IMG/VR virus record: IMGVR_UViG_3300042373_000174
Location: 1 to 36,736 of that record
Length of the DNA: 36,736 bases
Strand: one strand, 5' to 3'
From: a virus
Shown: positions 1,327-36,736 of the stretch, piece after piece
Layout of the letters: every line of letters starts with the position of its first letter
Position numbering within the stretch: the stretch's first letter is position 1
Position numbers and translations under genes: made by a program
The notes under the pieces: generated by a model
Told to the model about the DNA's origin: nothing
The model's input: the letters and a program-made list of their open reading frames with translations, nothing else
Database searches by the model: none

Positions 1327-1412
1327 TTTAGGACAAACCCGAAGATGATGGGTGTCGGTGGGTGTCGCGGTGGGCGAGGTTTGGGTGGGGCGAATTGGCT
1401 GTCTACGCCCCG

Positions 1413-1782
1413 TGTGGGTAGTTTGGGTAGCAGTTTGTATTTTCTGAAATAGAAAGTTATATTTCATATAGTGGAACGGAGCGTCATGTGGAGCGCTGGC
1501 GGGATCCACCGACTTGAAAAACTGCTACCCACATGACCCACACTCTAAATCGTTGTCAGATATAGGGTTTCCGGCATTCACCCCCTTCAGAGTGGCACCC
1601 ACACAAAGCACCCACAAATCCGGCCGCGCTCACGCCAGACAGCCAGAACCAAATACCGACTTGCGTGGGTGCTACCCAAAGTGCCCACAACCTTGCGTGT
1701 AGCGTCTTGTTACGTCATGCCGCCTGGCAGCTTGCTGCGCGCCGCCTGCCGACTGCCGTGGGTGCTACCCACATGACCCACA
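1413..1782. repeat. Iteron-like array of GCTACCCAnnnnnCCCACA (four copies)
   Basis: Copies are at 1413-1431 (inverted), 1524-1542, 1671-1689 and 1764-1782. Each has two CCCA half-sites about nine bases apart. Copies 2 and 4 share an exact 20-mer (1523-1542 and 1763-1782). Copies 3 and 4 are both preceded by GTGGGT, forming GTGGGT-GCT-ACCCAC at 1758-1772. Copies 1 and 2 face each other around the AT-rich patch. Looser relatives lie at 1349-1368 (tandem TGGGTGTCG) and 1595-1616. Irregular spacing and short length exclude CRISPR. Confidence 0.75.
1435..1463 (+). promoter_or_regulatory. Candidate rightward promoter inside repeat array
   Basis: TTGTAT (1435-1440), a 17-base spacer, then TATATT (1458-1463), a good -10 with a weaker -35. 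It lies between the two inverted repeat copies, so a protein bound to the array would be well placed to control it. The AT-rich stretch could instead be a DNA-unwinding element. Confidence 0.35.
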
Positions 1783-26754: not shown

Positions 26755-26969
26755 TTTGTCCCCCAGATGATTTCGCTGTTGTAACCCTTTACTTCTTTCT
26801 TAGACGCCCACCGGCCAGCCTTGACCGCTGACTCATGAGGAAAGGCAGGCCATGACCACAGCCTGCCATCCCACCATCGGTAAGAGTTGTTCCAACCTTG
26901 TGTAGTGTCCCGCGCAAACCGCGCCGCATACCAGCCAGAGGTAGGTGGTGTCCCCACGTTCCACTTCAT
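26751..26969 (-). CDS. Trp-rich small phage protein
   Basis: 72 residues, start coupled by ATGA to the upstream gene, with GAGG before the ATG. Trp/Tyr/Gly-rich: GTPPTSGWYAARF, WNNSYRWWDGRLWSWPAF, ending SEIIWGTK. The pattern GxPxxGWY...W.W resembles small DUF551-like beta proteins in phage early regions, but I cannot assign the family. It is probably a compact beta domain. Confidence 0.7.
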   Translation of the reverse strand: MKWNVGTPPTSGWYAARFARDTTQGWNNSYRWWDGRLWSWPAFPHESAVKAGRWASKKEVKGYNSEIIWGTK

Positions 26970-27163
26970 ACCGACCTCGCCGTACCCAACAACTCAATCC
27001 TCTCCCGCGACACGCGCAGGGCGTTGTACCTCTGGTGAAGTCTCTGCAAGAACATCGCCCTGCGGCGGTTCTTGATCTCGTGCTCCAACATCGCCAGCAC
27101 CGTCGGCTCGTCGAACGTGTTTAGGTGTTGGTTCAACACCCTCCAATTTTCTAGTGATTCCAT
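26966..27163 (-). CDS. Small helical protein of unknown function
   Basis: 65 residues from ATG 27163-27161 with AAGGA six bases upstream; the frame could start at a TTG one codon earlier. MESLENWRVLNQHLNTFDEP, then LAMLEHEIKNRRRAMFLQRL and HQRYNALRVSRERIELL, are basic helices typical of phage small DNA- or RNA-associated proteins. The TGA overlaps the next ATG. Most of it overlaps, in another frame, the end of the gene that follows the helicase. Confidence 0.68.
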   Translation of the reverse strand: MESLENWRVLNQHLNTFDEPTVLAMLEHEIKNRRRAMFLQRLHQRYNALRVSRERIELLGTARSV

Positions 27164-27263
27164 CAATTGTCCTTAGTACTTTCTCATAACCACGTTGAGC
27201 GGCGTTCAACTGCCGCTGCCTGATCCTCAGTTCCGCTTTCGCGGCAAACAACTTCGCTTTCAT
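26994..27263 (-). CDS. Helical protein coupled to helicase, overlaps next gene in another frame
   Basis: 89 residues from ATG 27263-27261, which overlaps the helicase TGA and has GGAGG seven bases upstream. The N-terminal 47 residues are helical and basic (KLFAAKAELRIRQRQLNAA, YEKVLRTIDGITRKLE). The remainder (VEPTPKHVRRADGAGDVGA ... VQRPARVAGED) is disordered and Pro/Gly-rich, and lies within the overlapping gene at 26966-27163, so it may be a by-product of that gene's codons. The stop could be displaced by a frameshift. Function unknown. Confidence 0.58.
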   Translation of the reverse strand: MKAKLFAAKAELRIRQRQLNAAQRGYEKVLRTIDGITRKLEGVEPTPKHVRRADGAGDVGARDQEPPQGDVLAETSPEVQRPARVAGED

Positions 27264-33479: not shown

Positions 33480-33950
33480 ATGAATCAAGATAGGCTAAAA
33501 GAGCTGTTGCATTACTGTCCCTTGACGGGCGTGTTTACGTGGCGCAGTACAGGCAAATTAGCCGGGTCTAATAAAGGCCATCGTTATTTACGGATTACTA
33601 TTTCACACAAACACTATTTTGCACATCGGCTTGCATGGCTTTATGTTTACGGTGTCGAGCCTATTTTGCACATTGACCATATTAATCATGAGTCGCTTGA
33701 CAACCGCATAGAAAATTTGCGCCAAGTTACTGTTAGCCAAAACATTCAGAATTCAAAATTGTCCGCCGCAAATTCTAGCGGCTACAGGGGTGTTTCAAGA
33801 GATAAACGCCGAAACAAATGGGACGCGTACATTAATGTTAACTACAGAAAAAAGTATTTAGGTAGTTTTGACAACATTTGCGATGCGGCGAAAGCGTACG
33901 CCGTTGCCGCGTCAAAAATTCACACGCATAATCCCGAGGCTGTTAAATGA
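33480..33950 (+). CDS. HNH homing endonuclease with AP2 domain (second copy)
   Basis: 156 residues, with GGAGAG upstream. LLHYCPLTGVFTWRS and AHRLAWLYVYG precede the HNH core HIDHINHESLDNRIENLRQ; SGYRGVSRDKRRNKWDAYI and KKYLGSFDNICDAAKAYA form the AP2 domain. It is a paralogue of the gene at 1887. Base composition is visibly AT-richer than its neighbours, as for a transferred selfish gene, and it lies between two essential replication genes. ATGA overlap joins it to the primase gene. Confidence 0.9.
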   Translation: MNQDRLKELLHYCPLTGVFTWRSTGKLAGSNKGHRYLRITISHKHYFAHRLAWLYVYGVEPILHIDHINHESLDNRIENLRQVTVSQNIQNSKLSAANSSGYRGVSRDKRRNKWDAYINVNYRKKYLGSFDNICDAAKAYAVAASKIHTHNPEAVK

Positions 33951-36175
33951 TCGACTACCTGAGTTCACTCGCTGGCGAAGGCGAAACTTTCCTGATCGTC
34001 AAGCAAAAGCCCAAGGGTGAGGCGTTCACCTACCCGGCTTTCCTGCCTCGCAAGTACACGCCAGGCGGCGCGTGGTATGGCAACACCGGCTCTTTCATCG
34101 TTGACCGCTTCCGCGACGGCCATGTGTCGGCCAGCAGCGCGAACATCGAACACGTTCTGGTTATGGTGCTGGACGACATCGGCACGAAGAGCCGCGCGCC
34201 CGAACTGCCGCCGACTTGGATTATGGAGACCAGCGAGGGTAACTACCAGTGGGGCTACACCTTCTCTGAACAGCCCACTAAACATGAGTTCGCCGCTGCG
34301 ATCCTCGCTATTGCTGCCGCTGGCTACACCGACCCCGGCGCGATCAACCCGGTTAGAAACTTCCGACTGCCGGGGTCAGTCAATCACAAAAATGGCTTTG
34401 CGTCCCGGCTGGCCGAGTTCCACCCCGAGCGCGAATACACGCTTGACGAAATCTGCGAGGCGCTCCAAGTAACGCCCGCCGACCACGGCAATGGCAGCGT
34501 GCAGACGATTGCTGTTGACGCCGCGCCCGACGATGTTGTCGAGTGGCTGGCCGGGCGCGGCGAGGTGTTGGAGCACGGCAATTCCTCGGGCTGGTGGGGC
34601 GTCAAGTGCCCGAACAGCGCCGAGCACTCGGACGGCCAGATCGGCGCGCGTTATCTGCCCACCTCACGCGCGTTTGCTTGTTTTCACGGGCATTGTCAGG
34701 ACTGGGGGTCAGAGGCGTTCTTGGCCTGGGTCGCCGCCGAGGGTGGCCCCCGGCACGCGCACGGGTTCCGGTCAGAACTGATCGCCAGCATCATGCAGGG
34801 CGTTGCTGAGAAGCTGAACCCGACGCCAGCGTTCCCCGACGCCGCCGCTGCGACGATCAAGGCGGTCGAACAGCGCGAGCTAGGCCGGATCGACAAGGCC
34901 GACTGGTGGGGTAAGTGGGCCTACGTCCAAGACGATGAATCATTCTTCGACCTTGACGACCGGCGGCTAGTGTCCCGCTCGACTTTCAACGCCATTTATC
35001 GCCACGTTAACTGTACGTCGATCCACGGCAACAAGCCCCGGCGTGTCGAGGCGTCGATCTGCTTTGACGAGAACCGCCAAGCTAACGGCGCGCATTGCTT
35101 GTCAGGCGTCACCTATGCCGCTGGCGGCTCCACCTTGGTCACGCGCGAGGGCTTGGTGTACGGTAATCGCTGGCGCGACCATCGCCCCGAGCCGATACCT
35201 GGTGACGCTGGCCCTTGGCTGCGTCATGTCGCGCGGATGATCCCCGACGCTATGGAGCGCGCGCACTTCTTGTCTGCGCTGGCCCATAAGGTCCAGTTTC
35301 CATCAATCAAGATCAATCACGCCATCCTGCTAGGCGGCAATCACGGCAGCGGCAAGGATACGCTGATGGCCCCCTTCTTTTGGGCTATCGGTGGCGACAC
35401 GAAGTCCAACTGCACCATGGTCAAGAATGAAGAACTGACCAGCCAATGGGGATACGCTCTCGAATGTGAGGTGATGGAGATCGCCGAGCTTAGACAGTCT
35501 GACGCCAAAGACCGTCGCGCGATAGAAAACACCCTCAAGCCGATTATTGCCGCGCCCCCTGAGTTGCTGCCCGTGAATCGTAAGGGCTTACACCCATACA
35601 TGGCGCTCAACAGAATTTTTGTTGTTGCCTTTACGAACGAGCGCGGAGCCATTTCGTTGCCCTCTGAAGATAGGCGATGGTTCGTGATCTGGTGCGAGGC
35701 CGACCGACTGCCCGAAGCCGACGCTGGCGCGCTCTGGAACTGGTACACACACCAGAACGGCTTCGGGGCCGTGGCCCATTACCTGATGACTTACGATGTG
35801 TCGGCCTGGTGCCCGACTGCGCCGCCACCCATGACCGAAGCCAAGCTGATCTTGATTGATGCTGCCATGTCGCCCGCAGAGGCCGCGCTCGTGTCGGCGA
35901 TCCGAAACCGCGTGGGTGACTTCCGCGAGGGGGTCATCTGCGGCCCTTTCCACGCTATCCTCGACCGGGTGCAGTTCCCCGCCCATGTCAAGACGCCACC
36001 CCAGGCCGCGCTGTTTCACGCGCTCAAAGAGGCCGGGTGGGTCGACATGGGCCGACTGCACTCGCGTGACCACAGCACGAAGAAGCACATTTTCCGCGCG
36101 CCAGAGTTGGCCGGAGTGTCGAAGTCTGACCTTCGCGTTATGGTCGAAAAAAGACCCGCCGAAGCGGGTCATTAA
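33947..36175 (+). CDS. Primase-helicase (AEP-like primase, zinc motif, SF3-like DUF5906 helicase)
   Basis: 742 residues. The N-terminal region has an archaeo-eukaryotic-type primase pattern: VMVLDDIGTK (D76, D77) and NPVRNFRLPGSVNHK (about 134-148). A zinc motif follows: CPN...H (221, 227) and CFHGHC (245, 250). The C-terminal half is a superfamily 3-like helicase of the DUF5906 type: Walker A GGNHGSGKDT (463-472), then EVMEIAELRQSD and VVAFTNERGAISLPSEDRRW as Walker B and sensor motifs. It should prime and unwind DNA at the phage origin. The gene overlaps the HNH stop. Confidence 0.9.
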   Translation: MIDYLSSLAGEGETFLIVKQKPKGEAFTYPAFLPRKYTPGGAWYGNTGSFIVDRFRDGHVSASSANIEHVLVMVLDDIGTKSRAPELPPTWIMETSEGNYQWGYTFSEQPTKHEFAAAILAIAAAGYTDPGAINPVRNFRLPGSVNHKNGFASRLAEFHPEREYTLDEICEALQVTPADHGNGSVQTIAVDAAPDDVVEWLAGRGEVLEHGNSSGWWGVKCPNSAEHSDGQIGARYLPTSRAFACFHGHCQDWGSEAFLAWVAAEGGPRHAHGFRSELIASIMQGVAEKLNPTPAFPDAAAATIKAVEQRELGRIDKADWWGKWAYVQDDESFFDLDDRRLVSRSTFNAIYRHVNCTSIHGNKPRRVEASICFDENRQANGAHCLSGVTYAAGGSTLVTREGLVYGNRWRDHRPEPIPGDAGPWLRHVARMIPDAMERAHFLSALAHKVQFPSIKINHAILLGGNHGSGKDTLMAPFFWAIGGDTKSNCTMVKNEELTSQWGYALECEVMEIAELRQSDAKDRRAIENTLKPIIAAPPELLPVNRKGLHPYMALNRIFVVAFTNERGAISLPSEDRRWFVIWCEADRLPEADAGALWNWYTHQNGFGAVAHYLMTYDVSAWCPTAPPPMTEAKLILIDAAMSPAEAALVSAIRNRVGDFREGVICGPFHAILDRVQFPAHVKTPPQAALFHALKEAGWVDMGRLHSRDHSTKKHIFRAPELAGVSKSDLRVMVEKRPAEAGH
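36153..36170 (-). terminator. Intrinsic terminator for leftward operon, inside the primase gene end
   Basis: Read on the minus strand: GACCCGC-TTCG-GCGGGTC followed by TTTTTT (36152-36147), a seven-pair stem with UUCG loop and clean T-tract. It lies in the last codons of the convergent primase gene and ends the leftward operon. On the plus strand the same hairpin is followed only by ATTAAAG, so it would be weak there. Confidence 0.85.
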
Positions 36176-36231
36176 AGACGTAATAGCGTGGCTAGTATAG
36201 CGGCGATGAGCGCCGCTAGCACCAGCGTCAC
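36172..36231 (-). CDS. 19-residue hydrophobic micro-protein
   Basis: GTG 36231-36229 overlaps the TGA of the previous gene (GTGA); TAA 36174-36172 overlaps the primase stop on the other strand. It encodes MTLVLAALIAAILATLLRL, one short membrane span with a single Arg. A GGAAGAG sequence lies just upstream. The coupled start and membrane-like composition support translation, but short length leaves chance possible. Confidence 0.4.
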   Translation of the reverse strand: MTLVLAALIAAILATLLRL

Positions 36232-36533
36232 GTCTCTTCCGCGCAGATTGGCTGCGTCGGGTCGTAGTGTGTTGTTGGCCGTTCGTTGAGCGGCGCAAAC
36301 CGCGCAACGCATGACGGCATGATCTTTTCGTTGAGCATTTCATACTGACGCACATACTGCGCCGTTGAGTCTGCGTGTGTCGGGTACTGCCGCGCCATCT
36401 TGAGGCCTGGCGCGTCGGGCTTGAACTTGCGCCCCTTACCCTTCGTTTTGATGCTGGCACATAAGGCGCGCGCATTCTCCGCGTTTTCAGGGCGCAGGGT
36501 GAACGCGGTGCCGTCGATGTTCAAGGTAATCAT
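36228..36533 (-). CDS. Small basic protein of unknown function
   Basis: 101 residues from ATG 36533-36531, with GGAG eight bases upstream and overlapping the previous TGA; the longer upstream frame is a shadow. N-terminal strand-rich MITLNIDGTAFTLRPENAEN, then a basic region (IKTKGKGRKFKPDAPGLK) and QYPTHADSTAQYVRQYEMLN. It may bind nucleic acid. No family is recognised. Part of the leftward operon, near its end. Confidence 0.7.
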   Translation of the reverse strand: MITLNIDGTAFTLRPENAENARALCASIKTKGKGRKFKPDAPGLKMARQYPTHADSTAQYVRQYEMLNEKIMPSCVARFAPLNERPTTHYDPTQPICAEET

Positions 36534-36736
36534 TTGCTTGTCTCCAATGGCAGCCATGCGGCTTTGATGTAGCGCTCGTGATCCGAAAGAGCTTCCTCTT
36601 TCGTTTTGTCCCATGGCCCAACGTGCACGGGCATCGCTTCGTTGCAGTCGAAATGCCCCCATGCGTGCACGTTTTTCTTGAGCGTGACGTTGTAGGCGTT
36701 GGTGACGCCGATTAGCACGCCAGTTTGTTCGGTGTA
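36530..36736 (-). CDS. Small phage protein crossing the circle junction (second copy, 3' complete)
   Basis: The right-end copy of the gene that starts at 163. Here the frame runs off the right end of the window and the stop lies at 36532-36530 (TGA, overlapping the next ATG). Together the two parts give 73 residues. This copy encodes Asp at residue 48 (GPWDKTKEEA), the left copy Tyr. C-terminus: SDHERYIKAAWLPLETSK. No family recognised. Confidence 0.75.
   Translation of the reverse strand, partial: YTEQTGVLIGVTNAYNVTLKKNVHAWGHFDCNEAMPVHVGPWDKTKEEALSDHERYIKAAWLPLETSK
36589..36736. repeat. Terminal direct repeat (copy 2 of 2)
   Basis: Matches 1-148 with one difference (36610 C versus 22 A). 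See the first copy for interpretation. Confidence 0.93.

Follow-up and report, generated by a model that had tools for sequence, protein, structure and literature searches.

Proteins that join a helicase to a DNA-binding domain and act at short repeats have been described in several mobile elements. In the case of P4 alpha, which carries a Toprim primase, the repeats of the origin are bound by a winged helix (PMC4234260), and the C-terminal domains of SaPI Rep and Cch2 recognise iterons in origins immediately downstream of the helicase gene (PMC7581432). An archaeo-eukaryotic primase, an SF3 helicase and a winged helix are also found together in pRN1 ORF904 and in proteins of phage BIP-1, in whose case the authors saw no origin of the iteron type and suggested that assembly takes place at a stem-loop (PMC4234260). 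The polymerase of NrS-1 is reported to use an 8-nt template recognition sequence that is present in two genomic copies, with no iteron array (PMC7102993).

The locus analysed here belongs to a phage record of 36.7 kb (36,736 nt, referred to in its full length as the window), described as a freshwater phage. We propose that positions 1357-1782 are very probably the replication origin of this phage, with tandem 9-mers that would be bound by the winged helix of its own primase-helicase. Like P4 alpha, this protein combines a primase, an SF3-type helicase and a winged helix that may bind repeats, but its N-terminal domain is a RepB_primase rather than a Toprim domain, and unlike the P4 origin the present group carries tandem 9-mers with lineage-specific letters. 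As with SaPI Rep and SCCmec Cch2, a self-encoded helicase has a C-terminal domain that appears to be paired with short origin repeats; in contrast to the SaPI-type replicon, the initiator gene and the array are some 1.8 kb apart, with a small leftward operon in between, and unlike the SaPI and SCCmec islands this is a phage genome, in which the recognition segment could be traced to a predicted wing. A single protein that unites a primase, an SF3 helicase and a winged helix is shared with pRN1 ORF904 and BIP-1, and a related helicase part with the NrS-1 primase-polymerase, whereas the clear iterons of the present phage group set it apart from all three. Within the open-licence literature compared, the locus is best read as an iteron origin of the kind used with P4 alpha and SaPI Rep, distinguished by the type of primase, a fast-diverging specificity and a striking diversity of letters.

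The Repeat Array and Its Genomic Context

The original prediction for this stretch had described four 19-base units, one inverted and three direct, with looser relatives around them and an exact 20-mer occurring twice, 240 bases apart. The motif GCTACCCAN5CCCACA indeed has four exact copies, at 1413-1431 on the minus strand and at 1524-1542, 1671-1689 and 1764-1782 on the plus strand, with zero further exact matches in the window and a chance expectation of 0.00 (100 dinucleotide shuffles). The 20-mer TGCTACCCACATGACCCACA is present at 1523-1542 and 1763-1782, at the spacing given, and the looser relatives were found as degenerate single 9-mers. When up to three mismatches are permitted, six units are found against 3.3 expected, an unexceptional number, so that only the exact units count as evidence by themselves. 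While the 19-base copies are real, the true unit is a pair of head-to-tail 9-mers with a 9-bp period, CTACCCACA+TGACCCACA, CTACCCAAA+GTGCCCACA or a close variant, and because of the degenerate 9-mers at its left end the feature extends a little beyond the start at 1413 that had been noted (Table 1). The gap separating copies of opposite orientation has an AT-rich core at ~1435-1472, and its densest 50 bp reach 72% AT.

Table 1. Features of the repeat array, its surroundings and the proposed initiator gene (positions in the window).
Feature	Position	Strand	Remarks
Leftward operon	first start ~1265	-	left flank of the repeat array
Leftmost 9-mer-like sites ACACCCACC, TCGCCCACC, CCACCCAAA	~1357-1388	-	degenerate, weak
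Iteron pair 1, CTACCCAAA + CTACCCACA	1413-1430	-	left, outward-facing; conserved in close relative L125
Gap separating (-) and (+) iterons	1431-1524		57% AT; candidate unwinding element
Promoter-like CTGAAA-17-TATAGT	1444-1472	+	within AT-rich core; consensus match only
Iteron pair 2, CTACCCACA + TGACCCACA	1525-1542	+	
Two looser 9-mers GCACCCACA	1595-1603, 1608-1616	+	4 bp between
Inverted single 9-mer	1664-1672	-	ahead of pair 3
Iteron pair 3, CTACCCAAA + GTGCCCACA	1672-1689	+	
Inverted single 9-mer	1757-1765	-	ahead of pair 4
Iteron pair 4, CTACCCACA + TGACCCACA	1765-1782	+	
HNH endonuclease, putative TerS, TerL, portal protein	rightward side of array		
Nuclease, SNF2 helicase	far end of window	leftward	
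Exonuclease, SSB-like protein, PolA, second HNH, 742-residue primase-helicase	far end of window, after SNF2 helicase		
Primase-helicase, 742 aa	33947-36175	+	proposed initiator; RepB-type primase, DUF5906/SF3 helicase, C-terminal winged helix
C-terminal winged helix (predicted)	35867-36151	+	residues ~641-735; proposed 9-mer-binding domain
Wing segment LHSRDHSTK	36056-36082	+	residues 704-712; 705, 707 and 710 covary with 9-mer bases

The placement of the array between divergent operons was likewise borne out, with the leftward operon on one side and the rightward HNH-terminase operon on the other. The genome map is probably circular and complete, because the terminal bases of the record seem to overlap, if imperfectly; on this circular map the order is primase-helicase, small leftward operon, array, and that the array does not directly adjoin the primase gene counts against a pairing of origin and initiator. 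The label TerS rests on gene position and on annotation in relatives, and a PHROG search with the putative TerS of the window gave no match. In the host lookup the matches were phage-like contigs only, found in metagenome bins of freshwater Betaproteobacteria, Methylococcaceae and others.

Several further features of the window were recorded. Just upstream of the HNH/terS start, a G-rich and then A/T-tract element (GAGGGGGAGGGGTAGGGCCGAC...GGGCC...ACAATTTTTATTTTTTT...TATA, 1783-1880) is kept in five aligned relatives; a late promoter or a packaging signal would be our guesses as to its nature. The two HNH endonuclease genes (1866-2351 and 33480-33950), which sit immediately before terS and before the primase-helicase gene, belong to the same PHROG family (phrog_99), and since each occurs in only four of 22 relatives they appear to be mobile genes. 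A 66-residue protein without PHROG match (26966-27166, minus strand) is kept in 17 of the 22 relatives at a mean identity of 57%, and a family of small leftward proteins with the motif (Y/F)P...ST..YV..Y..LN, represented at 36228-36662 on the minus strand next to the 3' end of the primase gene, occurs at 73 of 102 loci.

Conservation of the Array Among Relatives

Relatives were collected from IMG/VR by means of TerL, and the gap upstream of the terminase genes was scanned for 9-mers. The motif recurs in related phages at the equivalent place in the form of tandem 9-mers whose letters differ by lineage: nearly all of the approximately 100 relatives have them ahead of the terminase genes, and the DNA downstream of terL showed none. 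The letters are mostly uniform inside one genome, with TTGTCCACA, TTGCCCACA, TGACCCAAA, TAGCCAACA, TAGCCGACA, TGGCACACA and others each typical of certain lineages, and are mixed in some lineages (those with an EYQ wing). One clade has a pair spacing of 10 bp, not 9, and at a few loci the generic scan returned zero or single matches, variant copies being visible by eye in some of these. The exact 19-mer itself was found in viral contigs mostly as scattered single occurrences among the matches listed, which include one close relative, L125.

Counted over 14 records, 64 tandem pairs that match the type of their own record fall in the gap ahead of terS, with 0 in the rest of the sequence. The layout is also kept, with minus-strand pairs mostly to the left and plus-strand pairs mostly to the right of an AT-rich gap, which at 63 loci has a median length of 99 bp and a median composition of 62% AT, compared with 49% regionally; the densest 50 bp of AT lie strictly within this gap at 36 of the 63. 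The conserved place, the outward pairs around an AT-rich gap and the count of 64 versus 0 pairs support, at the level of sequence, the original suggestion that the repeats would be iterons of a replication origin. Cumulative GC skew, which had been named as a check, has no consistent switch near the array and neither supports nor excludes this reading.

Different repeats were observed in two records. OR003940 (L205:33200-34100), which has a different replication module with a PolB-type polymerase, carries palindromic TGACCCACTGGGTCA-type and CGCACCCCG repeats in the equivalent gap. The relative MW202483 has a gene for a stand-alone DnaA domain IV protein (L206:31423-31719; PF08299, E 1e-17), and its gap contains an additional, separate cluster of TTTACATAAACA-like repeats.

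The Primase-Helicase as Proposed Initiator

TerS, TerL, portal and primase-helicase are among the genes that the majority of 22 relatives have in common, and the primase-helicase was found in all 20 relatives searched for it. The N-terminal domain of the window protein matches RepB_primase, with no match to the Toprim-type primase family, and the helicase part matches DUF5906 and resembles the NrS-1 phage primase-polymerase by sequence profile (6k9c/6lrb, E 2e-7). Modelling of the C-terminal 154 residues gave a pLDDT of ~83-91 across the winged-helix part and placed the variable residues in the wing, the hairpin joining the last two strands, with a conserved helix preceding it; the full-length model agrees in the C-terminal domain and is elsewhere too poor to use (pLDDT 45). 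Foldseek gave no match at E <= 0.001, and VIA-align returned weak winged-helix matches only (Z up to 6.4). No match to the origin-binding domain of P4 was found by sequence or fold, and the weak structure matches point neither toward nor away from kinship with it.

The locus has a non-coding region with several short direct repeats, an AT-rich element among or beside them, and a self-encoded primase-helicase with a predicted C-terminal DNA-binding domain, features of iteron origins that a primase-helicase binds, as with P4 alpha and SaPI Rep. We envisage that the C-terminal winged helix would physically bind the tandem 9-mers. Since the AT-rich centre is flanked on either side by outward-facing copies, there would be room to load two helicase assemblies; these would melt the AT-rich centre, after which the primase-helicase would unwind and prime, so that replication would start at the array.

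Covariation of Wing and 9-mer

An alignment of 102 primase C-termini revealed a short variable motif, residues 705-711 of the window protein (HSRDHST), that changes with the 9-mer, the covariation being resolved to single residues at 705-710. Natural exchanges illustrate this. The TerL, TerS, PolA, SSB and exonuclease of G012 and G013 are 95-100% identical compared with 71% for the primase-helicase, DNA similarity disappears toward the C-terminus of the latter, and the 9-mers differ. Between G015 and G017, TerS is 100% and primase residues 401-697 are 96-99% identical, whereas residues 698-716 are only 53% identical, and the respective 9-mers are TGACCCAAA and TTGTCCACA. The reverse is seen for L062 and L252, which are 59% identical over residues 601-697 and 84% over 698-716, and have the 9-mer TGGCACACA in common. 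Distant phages with the wing HSR(D/E)FN also share the 9-mer TGRCACACA.

Across clades, residues 704-712 were the best predictor of the 9-mer (nearest neighbour, mean distance 2.09, compared with 2.63 for TerS and 2.88 for random choice), and this ranking was unchanged at stricter thresholds. Within clades, the association with the 9-mer exceeds all 1000 permutations, with other regions correlating as well. In a sliding test, another stretch of the C-terminus (665-676) shows an equally good correlation. Mutual information alone fails to single out the wing, given that there are only ~14 effective clades.

Four residue-base rules derived on the first set of sequences were applied to 58 further sequences with unseen C-termini, a check that is not fully independent, because the new sequences often share lineages with the first set. 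Three rules held, namely K705 with D/E710 for T4 (77 vs 1%), N710 for A5 (63 vs 1%) and non-R707 for A8 (88 vs 2%). The remaining rule largely broke down, at 19 vs 4%; the wing rule for Q/P/A710 was mainly good for Q. As the rules recur in separate clades, common linkage is unlikely to be the sole cause. Taken from the sequences, these observations suggest that the C-terminus of the primase-helicase reads the 9-mers through a few fast-changing wing residues.

Alternative Explanations

The position between divergent operons and promoter-like matches at 1444-1472 and 1839-1866 would also suit operators that control divergent early leftward and late rightward promoters, with replication starting elsewhere and a phage protein, possibly the primase-helicase, as the binder. 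We regard this as unlikely, given that the covarying protein is the primase-helicase, no known type of regulator, and that multiple spaced outward pairs around an AT-rich gap suit an origin better, although the two roles are not mutually exclusive. Packaging signals usually sit just upstream of terS, as the 9-mers do, and the G-rich element beside them is kept in relatives, which could point to cosB- or pac-like signals bound by TerS. This is less likely still: phages with quite different 9-mers have almost the same TerS, its helix-turn-helix stretch included, and the association of TerS with the 9-mer disappears after correction for the primase C-terminus (partial r -0.08). TerS was rejected as the binder of the 9-mers, the letters of which do not follow its DNA-binding residues.

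The original prediction looked for the binder among the small leftward genes or in the zinc-ribbon protein and named the primase-helicase only as a gel-shift candidate. The covariation instead points to the latter, and the window's leftward genes are missing from most repeat-bearing relatives. The primase tail and the array may travel in a single recombination block, and the DNA between them is likewise divergent in the natural swaps, so a small leftward protein could in principle bind the 9-mers while the primase covaries through the shared block; this becomes highly improbable as none of the leftward genes occurs throughout, the most frequent family (73 of 102 loci) predicts the 9-mer no better than random choice (3.07 vs 2.97; wing 2.13), and linkage would not yield identical residue-base rules in separate clades. 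An apparently near-universal leftward family proved to be an artefact of loose-linkage clustering and was removed by motif query, strict clustering and the prediction test. As to the host, the 9-mer of several lineages is TTGTCCACA, a DnaA-box-like sequence, and a DnaA domain IV is encoded by MW202483, so that the 9-mers might be variants of host DnaA boxes at which host DnaA starts replication. We give this almost no credence, since most lineages (TGACCCAAA, TAGCCAACA, TGGCACACA and the window's CTACCCACA) deviate from the DnaA box, the domain occurs in that one of 23 records only, and the letters track a gene of the phage rather than a factor of the host; in the window, the 9-mers CTACCCACA/TGACCCACA are not boxes near TTATCCACA, and no DnaA domain IV was found.

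Implications

To our knowledge, the replication start sites of most uncultivated phages are not known. Under the reading as an iteron origin, origin and initiator have here been matched from sequence alone in more than 100 phages, and the rules obtained extend in part to unseen cases. A primase-helicase without a P4-type primase can accompany iterons, where a stem-loop had earlier been proposed for similarly built proteins. We tentatively suggest, as a possibility that we would not yet call probable, that the wing carries a readable code (residues 705, 707 and 710 versus bases 4, 5, 6 and 8) which diversifies fast through point change and recombination and divides this group of phages among many types of origin, which perhaps keeps co-infecting relatives or satellites from firing each other's origins. 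If this code holds, the co-evolution of origin and initiator, incompatibility in co-infection and DNA recognition through a wing would become testable with small purified domains.
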